Shown piece by piece: positions 59,654-63,649 of a stretch of 64,000 bases of DNA. The DNA comes from Lachnoanaerobaculum sp. OBRC5-5 (lineage in GTDB: Bacteria; Bacillota; Clostridia; Lachnospirales; Lachnospiraceae), in contig NZ_JH815185.1 in the NCBI RefSeq assembly GCF_000296385.1, positions 1,134,684 through 1,198,683 on the forward strand, read 5' to 3'. Both the position numbers and the translations under genes were made by a program. Numbering within the stretch: position 1 is the first letter of the stretch; each line of letters begins with the position of its first letter. Below the pieces are notes generated by a model. That model did no database searches. It was not told where the DNA came from and saw nothing but the letters and a program-made list of their open reading frames with translations.

Positions 59654-59682
59654 TTGAAATGCTATTTTCAAATAGCTATAAT
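59654..59682 (+). promoter_or_regulatory. Promoter with spacer palindrome for the choline-binding lipoprotein gene
   Basis: TTGAAA (59654-59659), 17 bases, TATAAT (59677-59682), near consensus. The spacer is almost entirely the inverted repeat GCTATTTTCAAATAGC (59661-59676), a likely operator. The leader is about 27 bases. Confidence 0.75.
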
Positions 59683-59715
59683 ACCCTAAGTAAATGTTTT
59701 AGAGTTTGGAGGAAT

Positions 59716-60708
59716 ATGAAGAGGATTATACCGTTCTTATTACTATCATTAGGTATAGGTAGTAGTTTTTTAATAACAGGCTGTGAAAATAAGTCTTCCG
59801 TTGAAGAAGGCAGTCTTACAGCCGTAGACAATTCGGTTAAGACAGGTGTCGTAAGGGAATTAATCAGTTCTACAGATATCGGAGATGTTTATAACAGTAT
59901 CGGTGTCGACTATGAAAATGAATATGATGTGGATTCCATTGAAAAGAAAATGACAGGCCTTGCAATGGCAAATGCCGGTACGGATTCCTCCGACGGATTG
60001 ACTAAGCATCTTATTGTCGCTCCCACAGAGATGGATATGGAATTATTGTTTGACGTTGATACAAGTGCGATATTTTTGGAAGGTGGCATTTATACCAATG
60101 TAAGCCAATTTGCCGTATGGAGTTCGGAAAATCCCGATATTGCAGATGTTTATCAAGGTGAAGTACATGCTAAAAAGGTCGGTGAGACCAATATCAATGT
60201 TACATACAGAGATATCACTAAATCAATTCATGTAAATGTCGTTGAGAAAACAAATTGGGAAGAAAAAGACGGTTATTGGTATTATTATGATGCCAACGGC
60301 AAAAAAACCACAGGTTGGAAAGTAATAAACGGCAACTGGTATTATTTGAGCAATAACGGTTCAATGCTTACCGGTTGGCAGAAGATAAAAGACGCTTACT
60401 ATTATTTCCACTCAAACGGTACTATGGCACAAGGTGAGTGGGCTCAAAACCCTGACAACAACGAGTGGTATTATTTCAATTACAACGGTAAGATGGCTAT
60501 GCGTAAGTGGATAAAAGACGGCAACAATACATACTATGTACATTCTAACGGTACCATGGCTACCAATGAATGGGTACCTAAGGATGACGGAAGCTGGTGC
60601 TATATGCTTCTTGACGGTAAGATGGCCAGAGATCGCTCCATTGATATAAAGGGTGTAAGCTATCAATTTGATAAAGAAGGCAAATGCCTAAACCCTGAAG
60701 GAAACTAA
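59716..60708 (+). CDS. Choline-binding-repeat lipoprotein with Ig-like domain
   Basis: 330 residues from the ATG at 59716 (TTTGGAGG upstream). A lipobox FLITGC (C23) follows a basic, hydrophobic signal. About 100-175 resembles a BIG2-type Ig domain (FAVWSSENPDIADVYQGEV, quoted in part; VGETNINVTY). From about 185 to 320 there are six or so wall-binding repeats (YWYYYDANGKKTTGW, NWYYLSNNGSMLTGW, YYYFHSNGTMAQGEW, EWYYFNYNGKMAM and others). The double anchor (lipid plus choline-binding) is notable. A surface role is inferred. It has its own strong promoter. Confidence 0.87.
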   Translation: MKRIIPFLLLSLGIGSSFLITGCENKSSVEEGSLTAVDNSVKTGVVRELISSTDIGDVYNSIGVDYENEYDVDSIEKKMTGLAMANAGTDSSDGLTKHLIVAPTEMDMELLFDVDTSAIFLEGGIYTNVSQFAVWSSENPDIADVYQGEVHAKKVGETNINVTYRDITKSIHVNVVEKTNWEEKDGYWYYYDANGKKTTGWKVINGNWYYLSNNGSMLTGWQKIKDAYYYFHSNGTMAQGEWAQNPDNNEWYYFNYNGKMAMRKWIKDGNNTYYVHSNGTMATNEWVPKDDGSWCYMLLDGKMARDRSIDIKGVSYQFDKEGKCLNPEGN

Positions 60709-60723
60709 ATATATATTAATTTA

Positions 60724-60786
60724 TAACAGCTTTTATTTTACAATCCGTTTTAATATGCTTGGGATTGTAAAATTTAAAAGCTGTTA
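60724..60786. repeat. Short inverted-repeat element sharing ends with the 31-kb element
   Basis: TAACAGCTTTTATTTTACAATCC (60724-60746) is repeated in reverse, with a two-base indel, at 60762-60786 (GGATTGTAAAATTTAAAAGCTG and so on), separated by 15 bases. The core TTTTATTTTACAATCC equals the end of the element at 31315-31508. It may be a deletion derivative of that element, and may also end transcription of the lipoprotein gene. Confidence 0.65.
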
Positions 60787-60793
60787 TTTGATT

Positions 60794-60876
60794 TTAAATG
60801 TAATTTCTTAAATGTTCCCTATAGAGTCTTCTTTATCTAAATAATCTTCTATTTCTCCCTCTGAAAGTTTGGCTAC
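60794..60876 (-). pseudogene. Decayed duplicate of the maf 3' end
   Basis: Two blocks match the true maf gene: 60794-60830 matches the last codons (63063-63100) with two differences, and 60831-60876 matches 63206-63250 (codons for VAKLSEGEIEDYLDKK) with one or two. The roughly 105 bases between them in maf are missing. It has no start and no functional frame of its own. It lies on the far side of the DUF438/DUF4491 insert from maf, so insert and remnant share a history. Confidence 0.85.
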
Positions 60877-60898
60877 AAATAGAAAATTAAAAAAAGTG

Positions 60899-60968
60899 GC
60901 TGTAAAAATAGAAGCTTGAAACTCTTTTCATGAGTTGTTTCCTAAAGAGAGCTTTCTATTTTTACAGC
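60899..60968 (-). terminator. Terminator of the DUF438-DUF4491 unit
   Basis: GCTGTAAAAATAGAAGCT (60899-60916) pairs with AGCTTTCTATTTTTACAGC (60950-60968) with one bulge, around a 33-base loop. On the minus strand CACTTTTTTT follows. It lies 29 bases after the DUF4491 gene. Confidence 0.75.
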
Positions 60969-60997
60969 ATCTATAGCTTTATTTTCGTTGTATCGAA

Positions 60998-61282
60998 CTA
61001 TTTTCTCTTTGGATTTTTCGGGTACCATCCTTTTTCCACTCTTTTTTCCTGCTCATATAATTCATGGATACTCCAAAAGCAGGAAATGCCAAAGATGGCC
61101 AAACTTCCGGAGAGGAAAAGAGAAGGGAGAAAAATGCTGGCTATACAAGCGGATAGACCTATTAAGAAAAAAAGCCAGGCTATTTTTTTACTAAAGTAAT
61201 ACTCCGCATACACCACTATGGGATGAAATATCCCTATGCAGAGAAAGCAAACCAATCCTAAGAGTAAACCTTGAAAACTCAT
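60998..61282 (-). CDS. DUF4491-like small membrane protein
   Basis: 94 residues with about three membrane helices (4-26, 32-52, 55-70) and a charged end (YEQEKRVEKGWYPKNPKRK, of which the YPKNPKR tail is typical). It fits what I recall of the DUF4491 family. Function unknown. Its ATG overlaps the DUF438 gene's stop by four bases (ATGA), so it is coupled. The base composition is visibly more G+C-rich than the neighbouring genes, as is that of the DUF438 gene. Confidence 0.8.
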   Translation of the reverse strand: MSFQGLLLGLVCFLCIGIFHPIVVYAEYYFSKKIAWLFFLIGLSACIASIFLPSLFLSGSLAIFGISCFWSIHELYEQEKRVEKGWYPKNPKRK

Positions 61283-62919
61283 AGTTTAAAATACTCCCTA
61301 AGCTCTCGAAGCAGAGTGTTAAGATCCACCTCTGCCCGTTCACTCATAATCTTTACCGTGGCTTTCGGCAACATAATACGAGCAATAGGAGTGTTTAAGG
61401 CCTTAAAGCGATCGCTTAATCGGAAAAGGAGAGTCTTTACATTGGGATCTGCTTCCAAAATATCTTTTAACAGAGTGTCTTCGGTGATTTCTGTCAGCTT
61501 GCCGGCTGTCAAAGACTCTGTACTTTCTCTATTTTCTTCGTCTCCCAAAGTCCCTGCGTTTTCTTTATTGCCTACATCTTCAGAAGTCTCTAAGTCTTCT
61601 CTCTTGTCTTCGTCTTCAGCAGTCTCTTTGCCTTCTCCATTTTCCTGCTGCTCCCAGGTCAGAAGAGTTTGAGAGCCCTGTAGGGAGCGGATATGGGTGC
61701 AGTCCTGCATCATTTCCAGCACACCGCGGAACTTTCCCTTTTCATCTCGAACCGCATAGTAAACGATGTAAATAAAGAGGTCCGGCTTGTTGATCCAAAA
61801 CTCCGCCTTATCCTGTTCTCCGGAACGGAACTTCTTAATGATTTCCTCAACGATATGTACCGAAGCCTTTGGATGACAGTTTTTCACATCTCTTCCGATG
61901 ACATTTTTACTTCTGGGGAAAACTCTGTGCTTGGTGTCGGTGTAGAAGCAAACCAGTTCATTTTCATCTACATAGGAAAGATCCACAGGCATATGCTGAT
62001 AAATCAGATTAATCTGTTCCAAGGTAAGTTGACCGGTAGTAACATTCAACTTTTCTTCTTTATTGTTAAAGCCGTATTTTCCCAGAAGACCGGCAAGCTC
62101 TTCCGCAAAACCGGGAGCGGAAGAAAGTCCGGATAGGGGAGCACCGGCTGTAGAAGCTGAGGCAGAAGATGAAGCCGAAGCTGAATTGCCGGACTTATCT
62201 GCCTGCACGCTAATATAGGCAAAACCGATTTCCCGGTCTCCCTCAGCCATATAACGGAACTCTTCTTCATTGATCATTTCCAAGGAGGTAGGGTAGAGGA
62301 TATTTTCTTCCTTGTCCATCAAATCCCGAACATCAGCCACAAGTTCTGCCTGCTTTCCGATAAATTCCTCTTCCTTATCCTCTAAAAGAAGATTGTAGCA
62401 CTCTGAAATCTCATCCCGGATAAAGTCATCCAAAGTCCACATGGTGGTGGTAGGGCGGGTAAAGCCTTTCTTTTCCAAAACCGGGTATAATTGGTTTTGC
62501 TTTCTGGACAAATGAATCTTGAATTTCAACAAGTCTTCATAAAGCTCCAGCCATTGGTTTTTAATGAGAGGGTACTGCACCAAATCCTCAACGGAAAGCA
62601 GTAGTTCCTTCATTTTGGCATTTTCCCTACGGTAACAGGAGATGGGATGATTTTCCGGAAGCTCTTGATCCTTTGTGACTAAAACATCCTGGAAGACCTC
62701 CAGCATAGCTTGAATATCTTCCTTAATGCACTCATCTTCGGTTTCTTCCACCATTTCCTGCTCAATAATGGCGATTTCATAGGGGGCAAGGTGCTGTACT
62801 CTATCTTTAAGGGCTTTTCTTGCTTCTTCCAAAGAAATCTTTCCCTCATCATAGGCGGATTTTATTTCATGGACAATTTCTAACTTATTACCATCAATAT
62901 TTTGAAAATTTTCTCTCAT
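61279..62919 (-). CDS. DUF438/hemerythrin/PAS protein with C-terminal DUF1858-like domain
   Basis: 546 residues, no membrane segment. Domains in order: DUF438 (about 8-75), a hemerythrin-like helical region (about 93-235, with ENHPISCYRRE, KIHLSRKQNQLYP and KEENILYPTSLEM), a low-complexity Ser/Ala linker, a PAS-type domain (about 305-425, NLIYQHMPVDLSYVDENELV and VIGRDVKNCHPKAS in part), an acidic linker and a DUF1858-like end (about 470-546). Such proteins are linked to sensing or handling of nitric oxide or oxygen in anaerobes, which is not proven here. AAGGAG precedes the start. A palindrome sits in its promoter. Confidence 0.87.
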   Translation of the reverse strand: MRENFQNIDGNKLEIVHEIKSAYDEGKISLEEARKALKDRVQHLAPYEIAIIEQEMVEETEDECIKEDIQAMLEVFQDVLVTKDQELPENHPISCYRRENAKMKELLLSVEDLVQYPLIKNQWLELYEDLLKFKIHLSRKQNQLYPVLEKKGFTRPTTTMWTLDDFIRDEISECYNLLLEDKEEEFIGKQAELVADVRDLMDKEENILYPTSLEMINEEEFRYMAEGDREIGFAYISVQADKSGNSASASSSASASTAGAPLSGLSSAPGFAEELAGLLGKYGFNNKEEKLNVTTGQLTLEQINLIYQHMPVDLSYVDENELVCFYTDTKHRVFPRSKNVIGRDVKNCHPKASVHIVEEIIKKFRSGEQDKAEFWINKPDLFIYIVYYAVRDEKGKFRGVLEMMQDCTHIRSLQGSQTLLTWEQQENGEGKETAEDEDKREDLETSEDVGNKENAGTLGDEENRESTESLTAGKLTEITEDTLLKDILEADPNVKTLLFRLSDRFKALNTPIARIMLPKATVKIMSERAEVDLNTLLRELREYFKL

Positions 62920-62994
62920 AGTTTTCTCCTTCAGGGGATATTCCTATCTGCTATCCAATTAGATTAGAAAGGAAAATATAGTATTGCATAGTTG

Positions 62995-63010
62995 GTTAGA
63001 ATAATCTAAC
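62995..63010. promoter_or_regulatory. Palindrome in the promoter of the DUF438 gene
   Basis: GTTAGA-ATAA-TCTAAC is a perfect six-base-arm inverted repeat. It is about where the -35 would be for a possible -10 (TACTAT or TATATT, 62983-62975) on the minus strand. The layout recalls Crp/Fnr-family sites, but the bases are not a known Fnr box. A related TCTAATCTAAT stretch lies at about 62958-62968. Confidence 0.55.
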
Positions 63011-63061
63011 TTATAATATTATAGCAAAAAAAAAGAAAGAAAAACAATGAAATTTCCAATC

Positions 63062-63649
63062 CTAAATGTAATTTCTTAAATGTTCTCTATAAAGTCTTCC
63101 TATCGGTAGTCCCATTACATTGTAATAATCACCTTCTATTCCGACTATATACCTTGAAAAATATCCCTGTATTGCATAGGCACCCGCTTTATCATAGGGT
63201 TCTTTTTTATCTAAATAATCTTCTATTTCTCCCTCTGAAAGCTTGGCTACCTCCACCGGAGTATCATCTACAAAACTCTCAAAGCTTTTCTTTATAGAAT
63301 TGTAAACACATACCGCCGTATATACTCTATGCTTTCTACCTGAAATGTCTTCAATCATCCGCTTTGCATCTTCTCTTGATTTCGGTTTCCCAAGTATTTT
63401 CCCATCAGATGCCACTATGGTGTCCGCTGCTATTACGATAAAATCATTTTCCTTGTATTTTAGTGTCGCCTGCTCTACAATATCTACCGCCTTTTGGCAG
63501 GCCTGCTTTTCACAGGCCTCCCTCGGGTCTTTACTGTCTATCTCGGTTTCCTTATCCGAAACCATTATCTCAAAATCAAGTCCGATCTGATTTAATAATT
63601 CCTTTCTTCTGGGTGATGCCGAAGCTAGAATTATTTTTATATCTTTCAT
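63062..63649 (-). CDS. maf: Maf-family nucleotide pyrophosphatase
   Basis: 195 residues, full length. The start ILASASPRRKELLNQIG (8-24), IAADTIVASDGKILGKP (about 73-89) and the EPYDKAGAYAIQG block (about 149-161) are all intact. Maf proteins hydrolyse non-canonical or excess nucleoside triphosphates and affect division. It starts four bases inside addA. Its 3' end is duplicated, in part, at 60794-60876. Confidence 0.95.
   Translation of the reverse strand: MKDIKIILASASPRRKELLNQIGLDFEIMVSDKETEIDSKDPREACEKQACQKAVDIVEQATLKYKENDFIVIAADTIVASDGKILGKPKSREDAKRMIEDISGRKHRVYTAVCVYNSIKKSFESFVDDTPVEVAKLSEGEIEDYLDKKEPYDKAGAYAIQGYFSRYIVGIEGDYYNVMGLPIGRLYREHLRNYI

Follow-up and report, generated by a model that had tools for sequence, protein, structure and literature searches.

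The maf gene of Lachnoanaerobaculum sp. OBRC5-5 adjoins a foreign two-gene unit, and a decayed second copy of the maf 3' end lies on the far side of this unit. The insertion probably left the last 188 maf bases in two direct copies, likely by insertion-duplication, and the far copy has decayed separately in two lineages.

The maf remnant and the inserted unit

The window, which is the whole stretch of 64,000 nucleotides analysed here, has the following features around maf.

59659-60708, + strand: cell-wall (choline-binding repeat) protein gene, named by family match; adjoins maf in relative G005
60723-60787, no strand: palindrome between the cell-wall-binding gene and the remnant, matching its own reverse strand at 75%
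60795-60831, - strand: remnant block A, corresponds to 63063-63099 (maf end), 35/37 matching
60827-60876, - strand: remnant block B, corresponds to 63201-63250 (maf, GTAGCC onwards), 48/50 matching
60877-63058, - strand: foreign unit (ends good to a few bases), with upstream region, DUF438-type gene, DUF4491 gene and terminator-like hairpin
60889-60968, - strand: intrinsic-terminator-like hairpin with T run at the unit end, -25.4 kcal/mol, z -3.99
60998-61282, - strand: DUF4491 gene, 94-aa protein, E 2.4e-38; its start overlaps the end of the DUF438-type gene
61279-62919, - strand: DUF438-type gene, 546-aa protein with weak DUF438, hemerythrin, PAS_10 and DUF1858
62995-63010, no strand: palindrome GTTAGA-N4-TCTAAC, some 90 bases upstream of the start of the DUF438-type gene
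63062-63649, - strand: intact maf, 195 aa, PF02545 at E 4.3e-58; its stop is 3 bases from the insert

Blocks A and B are collinear, in the same orientation and 95-96% identical to the intact maf 3' end, with TCTTC at 60827-60831 common to both. The remnant is 82 bases long where maf has 188, which leaves about 106 maf bases missing. These alignments bear out the preliminary description, which had reported two recurring maf 3'-end blocks at 60794-60876 with about 105 bases lost between them; its 37 bases hold for block A, while block B has 50 bases and not 46. Chance is excluded by the E values of about 1.9e-10 (block A) and 1.6e-17 (block B) in a comparison of 6 kb with 18 kb. When both strands of the 64 kb were scanned without gaps, the second-best places matched only 24/37 and 32/50, respectively. 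Block B abuts the insert at 60876/60877, and the far maf copy starts at GTAGCC against 60877. Thus the gene end is present in two direct copies flanking the insert (63063-63250 compared with the remnant pieces of the window and of strain ICM7); the near copy is the intact maf and the far copy is truncated at the insert. The cell-wall gene is the original neighbour of maf, and the palindrome at 60723-60787 was probably their original convergent terminator.

The stretch between remnant and intact maf looks like a whole transcription unit. A copy in relative G005 (C8) aligns to exactly 60877-63058 at 98%, and the O. parvum copy aligns to 61000-63089 at 93%. The name DUF438 is weakly supported, as PF04282 reaches 19.1 bits where the cut-off is 25, while PAS_10, hemerythrin and DUF1858 are above their cut-offs in the 546-aa protein. 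A hemerythrin/PAS protein would probably act in nitric oxide or oxygen stress. TIGR/NCBIfam gave this protein one weak PAS-kinase match (20.5 bits of a 400-bit cut-off) and gave the DUF4491 protein no match.

The hairpin at 60889-60968 was equalled in stability by 1 of 200 shuffles. A repeated MITE-like element was considered for it; no further copy was found in the genome by a 301-base search (40 of 49 candidates scored), and so we read the hairpin as the terminator of the unit. The palindrome GTTAGA-N4-TCTAAC is possibly an operator. O. parvum, O. sinus and G005 have it in the corresponding position, and G002 has it with one inner arm base different. A regulon under it was not supported, since a genome search for the exact form found no second site; a reversed control pattern also has one genome site.

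The locus in related strains

We compared five relatives in the genus with the window genome (G000), including L. gingivalis (G002) and Lachnoanaerobaculum sp. ICM7 (G004). G005 has the empty site: maf adjoins the cell-wall-binding gene without an insert. It carries the unit elsewhere in its genome at 98% identity, and its maf protein is only 80% identical. No short target duplication was seen by eye at the ends of this unit; at maf the duplication has 188 bases. G003 has no maf at all at the locus.

The left junction in ICM7 is identical to that of the window, and its remnant is longer, consisting of 63161-63250 and 25 further bases that match 63115-63139 weakly (E 2.7e-4); a chance-like piece appears in that comparison too, at E 0.001. 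The ICM7 remnant agrees with the window remnant across 45 bases, and together the two cover 152 of the last 188 maf bases. The empty site in G005 and the shared junction in ICM7 support the earlier proposal of a recombinational insertion that duplicated or replaced maf's end, after which the old end decayed, in its form with a duplication.

L. gingivalis has maf, DUF438 and DUF4491 genes in the same order, and the remnant is absent. The preliminary description had named this order without a maf remnant as evidence against the insertion, and on its face L. gingivalis is such a case, but its unit is itself truncated. It starts only at the equivalent of 60929, not 60877, and the DNA beyond it is common to the flank of the G005 copy (209 bp, 94.7%), so the remnant site in L. 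gingivalis has been replaced or deleted.

The preliminary description had left open whether the maf end was duplicated or replaced. At two sites (columns 26 and 28) the near-side maf end and the remnants share states that are absent from G002, G005 and G001, but two others (columns 71 and 74) point the other way, since there the ICM7 remnant is unlike both near-side mafs and like other relatives. Duplication fits somewhat better than replacement.

Origin of the unit and possible exchange with Oribacterium

The DUF438-type gene has a GC of 0.433 and GC3 of 0.457, against 0.373 (sd 0.023, max 0.422) and 0.321 (sd 0.027, max 0.380) in the other 47 ORFs of the window with 200 aa or more. The DUF4491 gene has a GC of 0.382 and GC3 of 0.411. 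So the insert differs in composition from its background, and the earlier claim of two genes with visibly higher G+C is fully good for one of them, since the DUF4491 gene is raised in GC3 only and not in total GC. Oribacterium ORFs have a GC3 of 0.45-0.47, similar to the DUF438-type gene. The codon use of this larger gene is also Oribacterium-like: its score toward Oribacterium per codon is +0.138, compared with -0.022 for the DUF4491 gene and at most -0.059 for window ORFs.

Between the window and G004, G002 and G005, dS was 0.11, 0.11 and 0.09 for the DUF438-type gene and 0.26, 0.22 and 1.9 for maf, and seven other genes had dS of 0.58-1.9 to G005. The dS of nusB to G002 (0.08) is below the value of the unit. 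Divergence lower than that of most neighbours and foreign composition were thus both found, and the unit is foreign.

The nearest copies found outside the genus belong to O. parvum and O. sinus, with 95% and 91% protein identity, and lie in different neighbourhoods. No maf stands beside the unit in either of these 13.6-kb loci. Neither has the tail 61000-60877, which places the immediate donor outside the sampled Oribacterium. Relatives of the DUF438-type protein, which resembles known DUF438/hemerythrin/PAS_10/DUF1858 proteins, were present in 79 loci of Lachnospiraceae, Treponema, Prevotella, Veillonella and others; the domain order was determined for the window protein. The difference from these loci is the joined DUF4491 gene, which was detected in 5 of the 79, all Oribacterium or Lachnoanaerobaculum-group, with one query protein by tblastn at E 1e-3, a search that distant DUF4491 could escape; at least three of the 79 loci (L119, L121, L136) are cut short so close to the gene that a neighbour would not appear. 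With only these five loci joined, a more widely conserved DUF438-DUF4491 operon was rejected.

The unit tree, (G004,(G000,(G002,G005))), does not follow the species, and the unit is mosaic, so no single history fits the whole unit. At 18 variable sites in succession (62119-62017) ICM7 has the O. parvum state, and the window genome has it at 15 others (62008-61810). These O. parvum-matching tracts at different places in the two genomes suggest repeated exchange. A literature search on horizontal gene transfer between Lachnoanaerobaculum and Oribacterium, by titles and abstract openings, found no report of such a transfer.

Route of insertion

We propose the following course of events. Oral Lachnoanaerobaculum acquired the Oribacterium-related two-gene unit, which in the lineage of the window strain and ICM7 came to adjoin maf directly. 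The insertion would have left the last 188 maf bases in direct duplicate, on either side of the unit. The near copy completes the working maf, while the far copy starts mid-gene and has no evident function. The far copy decayed separately in the two lineages: the window lost 106 bases between ends that carry a TCTT repeat, and ICM7 took in transposase-bearing DNA and lost sequence. There are strong indications that a single event produced the duplication. As the likeliest route, we infer that a fragment with the maf end joined to the unit circularised and entered by a single crossover in maf; the donor strain and the crossover are part of this inference.

In an E. coli conjugation assay (PMC3240628), 56 of 60 selected clones had a partial target duplication by PCR, and the duplications of 109-950 bp in 14 sequenced clones were explained by single crossover of a circular molecule. 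The present locus is similar to that lacZ insertion-duplication: a gene end occurs twice, directly, around an insert, with one copy truncated at the insert, and 188 bases are within the reported range. It differs in being a natural event, old and decayed, whose circle and donor are not seen, while the E. coli assay was conjugation with a selected marker. Several points stand against insertion-duplication. No relative shows a circle or donor fragment, the 25-base ICM7 piece is weak, and the unit is mosaic with a tree against the species. The order in L. gingivalis without a remnant means that the remnant may be confined to the window genome and ICM7 and the maf-unit join may be older. In favour of the route, ComEC and DprA are present and Ku was not found, but the presence of the first two does not prove competence, since ComEC was found in 10 and DprA in 11 of 14 control genomes. 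A search for literature joining illegitimate recombination, insertion-duplication and natural transformation found none.

Homology-facilitated illegitimate recombination (HFIR) is somewhat unlikely here, even though it would give the same final topology from linear DNA and one crossover: a linear maf-unit fragment would cross over by homology in maf, and its other end would be joined illegitimately inside the resident maf, so that the far remnant would be the resident's old maf end. Columns 71 and 74 would fit this, as an imported near-side end would explain why the ICM7 remnant is unlike both near-side mafs, and they count against insertion-duplication. However, the near-side end is unlike L. 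gingivalis, the one donor-like relative, at columns 26 and 28, and these few sites disfavour it as donor of that end. HFIR has been described in S. pneumoniae, A. baylyi and P. stutzeri, three species with natural competence (PMC3240628), where foreign DNA likewise adjoins a homologous anchor gene; it generally deletes recipient DNA, whereas here 188 maf bases are duplicated. Micro-homology of typically 3-10 bp is described at the illegitimate join in most cases, but three of four E. coli HFIR joins had none (PMC3240628), so its lack is no bar; at the left join none was seen by eye.

An Oribacterium-like fragment could also have been inserted in one step, through a pair of illegitimate joins at staggered maf breaks with fill-in duplicating 188 bases. 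This requires no earlier maf-unit molecule and explains the likeness of both maf ends at columns 26 and 28. We consider it unlikely, as a 188-base stagger is in our judgement long and Ku, the only end-joining family sought, was not found.

It is highly improbable that the unit is a mobile element moved by its own or a borrowed recombinase with the maf 3' end as integration site. The unit does occupy different places in different species, and transposase genes or pieces adjoin the G002, G004 and G005 copies, but neither of its genes is a recombinase, the ORFs of 60877-63058 carry no transposase or integrase, and no terminal inverted repeat of at least 20 bases pairs the ends. The longest word shared by the outer 40 bases is 5, which is chance level (250 of 500 shuffles), and the O. 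parvum and O. sinus copies have no maf next to them. Among the loci compared, no copy with the same two ends beside maf was seen in an unrelated genus. The 188 bases are also far longer than att cores or the target duplications of IS elements. Phage or plasmid carriage was rejected, as no relative lay on viral contigs and the hits in two plasmid records were only distant homologues (64.5% and 70.2% identity).

The view that the far block is an unrelated repeat or a convergent likeness, and not a maf remnant, has only the short length of the blocks in its favour and deserves virtually no credence, given two collinear blocks at such identity with nothing comparable elsewhere in the 64 kb, and it is refuted by the longer version with the same junction in ICM7.

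The insertion at maf is a clear but ordinary case of gene transfer, and general knowledge of the mechanism is unchanged by it. The locus is a well-preserved natural example of foreign DNA entering beside a housekeeping gene without breaking maf, in which the empty site, the shared junction and two decay states are preserved as a set. It shows that genes have passed between two oral genera of the Lachnospiraceae, and suggests that recombination with the source genus can go on after a gene has been imported. As a tentative possibility, the junction of maf and the cell-wall gene may be a recurrent landing place in Lachnoanaerobaculum, and the imported unit may provide homology for continuing cross-genus exchange with Oribacterium. 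If this is true, the maf remnant would be a surviving record, in this family, of insertion-duplication of the transformation type.

The maf remnant and the inserted unit

The end of the window around maf carries the following features.

59659-60708, plus strand: cbp, choline-binding-repeat protein gene (the cell-wall gene), original neighbour of maf
60795-60876, maf orientation: second copy of the maf 3' end (remnant)
60877-63058: insert (the unit)
within 60877-63058: DUF438-type gene, 546-aa protein; hemerythrin, PAS_10 and DUF1858 above cut-off, DUF438 below it
within 60877-63058: DUF4491 gene, 94 aa, overlapping the DUF438-type gene
within 60877-63058: hairpin with T run, intrinsic-terminator-like, z -3.99
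63062-63649, minus strand: maf, intact

The second copy of the maf 3' end beyond the insert, described in the preliminary description, is borne out. Two blocks occur again at 60795-60876 in maf orientation, with 35/37 and 48/50 bases identical, the next best matches to them in the 64 kb being 24/37 and 32/50. The remnant is 82 bases long versus 188 in maf, and its break sits at a common TCTT, so the loss inside it was likely a deletion between short repeats. The overlapping genes and the terminator-like hairpin together give the insert the appearance of a complete transcription unit with a presumed promoter.

The maf locus across the genus

We compared the locus in the window's genome (G000) and five others: G004 (taken as Lachnoanaerobaculum sp. 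ICM7), G002 (taken as L. gingivalis KCOM 2030), G005 (taken as Lachnospiraceae oral taxon 107 F0167), G001 and G003. The cell-wall gene and maf of G005 are about 100 bases apart without the insert, which is an empty site. Two DDE-transposase genes lie between them in G001. The cell-wall gene of G003 abuts addA with no maf between (extracted locus L172, 7664-7706), and maf was not found anywhere in this genome (97% complete).

G004 has maf, the unit and then a 90-base maf remnant, 96.7% identical to the window's maf, with the same left junction as in the window. The first 45 bases of the two remnants are identical, and together they represent 63063-63099, 63115-63139 and 63161-63250 (152/188 bases). 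In the ancestor, the far copy therefore very probably extended from 63250 as far as the maf end. Beyond the G004 remnant come about 2.5 kb with a transposase piece in them (88% identical to the G001 transposase across 197 residues); after these stand a weak 25-base maf piece (92%, E 2.7e-4; the same comparison also lists a chance-like piece at E 0.001) and the cell-wall gene.

The same gene order without a remnant in a relative had been named as evidence against the insertion reading. G002 does have maf followed by the unit, with no maf remnant found at the locus, but the refutation does not follow. Its unit begins at the equivalent of 60929, versus 60877 in the window, and past this point its DNA is shared with the flanking DNA of the G005 copy (209 bases, 94.7%), so we read its far side, where a remnant may or may not once have lain, as replaced or deleted. 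A piece weakly similar to transposases (27%, E 6e-6) is found still further out. The right junction beside the maf stop is common to G002, G000 and G004, with one base more in G002.

At columns 26 and 28 of the alignment, the near-side mafs of G000 and G004 have the states of both remnants, and these states are absent in G002, G005 and G001, which favours a remnant and near copy of one lineage and duplication within it. At column 71 the G004 remnant has the state seen in G002, G005 and G001, and at column 74 that of G005, both near-side mafs differing; in this comparison of few sites, the two columns would fit either import of the near-side end or a later change in the near copy.

Extra genes stand between maf and addA in G002 (L032 12962-17578), encoding an IS110-family transposase, a superoxide dismutase and a YtxH-like repeat protein. 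The same interval of G005 (L033 13266-15083) encodes a flotillin-type protein. With these additional genes, the locus has the look of a hot spot for insertions.

Source of the unit and its probable exchange

The window and G005 are 98% identical in the unit and 80% identical in the maf protein. From the window to G004, G002 and G005, the DUF438-type gene shows synonymous divergences of 0.11, 0.11 and 0.09; for seven further genes that could be set against all three genomes (dxs, ispA, xseA, nusB, mgtC, cbp and maf), the values are 0.15-0.31, 0.08-0.41 and 0.58-1.9. The contrast is clean for G005 and not for G002 alone, because nusB (0.08) is below the unit's value and the addA end (0.13; outside the G004 stretch compared) is close to it.

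The closest outside copies found come from O. parvum ACB1 (93% DNA) and O. sinus DSM 17245 (88% DNA), each in another neighbourhood, with no maf in these 13.6-kb loci. In codon use and GC3 the DUF438-type gene resembles Oribacterium, and DUF4491 is intermediate between both genera, on an Oribacterium background of 9 and 7 ORFs. Among 397 genomes drawn from the family, 25 had matches, and four cover most of the unit at at least 94%: G000, G002, G004 and G198 (probably O. parvum). G005 holds the unit and is not among the matching rows, presumably as it was not drawn. Its copy retains about 40 more bases of Oribacterium-like upstream DNA, which the maf-side copies are without, so we take it as not descended from a maf-side copy.

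A mosaic test on O. parvum and four Lachnoanaerobaculum-group copies (184 variable sites) showed G004 identical to O. parvum at 18 variable sites in a row (62119-62017) and G000 identical to it at a separate 15 (62008-61810); each of these runs was reached in 0/10,000 site-order shuffles. The longest runs of G002 (2) and G005 (3) were attained by 9940 and 6898 of 10,000. With O. sinus added (307 sites), runs were 43 and 21 for G004 and G000 (0 and 13 of 5000 shuffles) and 12 each for G002 and G005 (164 and 325 of 5000); rates vary along the gene and the runs do not give the direction of exchange. Repeated exchange with Oribacterium-type DNA is the simplest reading, and independent uptake from several donors may be an alternative. 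In the unit tree G004 branches off first and G000 next, leaving G002 paired with G005; this tree mixes histories because the unit is mosaic.

Several other observations concern the unit. G005 has an exact 87-base repeat of the unit's upstream-end DNA (L064 516-602 and 5365-5451, 4.8 kb apart), a second duplication around the unit; the second copy stands beyond a DDE-transposase gene, with assembly gaps nearby. A palindrome, GTTAGA-N4-TCTAAC, lies at 62995-63010, some 90 bases upstream of the start of the DUF438-type gene, and has the same position in G005, O. parvum and O. sinus, with one inner arm base changed in G002. It has a single exact copy in the window's genome, and the reversed control pattern likewise occurs in one place. 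The 6-4-6 form is that of Crp/Fnr-type operators, which this palindrome resembles. Relatives of the DUF438-type protein (about 42-60% identity) occur in several phyla, including Treponema, Prevotella, Veillonella, Fusobacterium and Proteiniphilum; many of the hosts are mouth bacteria.

Proposed route of insertion

Intact maf, unit and truncated maf end in direct order match the product of insertion-duplication. In an E. coli conjugation assay (PMC3240628), a PCR product of partial target duplication was obtained in 56/60 selected clones, with duplications of 109-950 bp in 14 sequenced clones, and was attributed to a circular molecule entering by one crossover. The window's locus has the same product, a target end duplicated around the insert. 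Homology-facilitated illegitimate recombination is a rival, and four clones of that assay were seemingly true cases, three of these four having no homology at the join; this process, as described there, generally deletes recipient DNA (PMC3240628). We therefore prefer single crossover of a circle, and a staggered double join is a further rival. ComEC and DprA are present, as they are in 10/14 and 11/14 control genomes, and a search for Ku found none (1/14 controls with Ku), which would allow RecA-type uptake routes.

The earlier reading of insertion with duplication and then decay was right in essence. The process itself is already known, and the value of this locus is that the empty site, the common junction and the two decay states are preserved.
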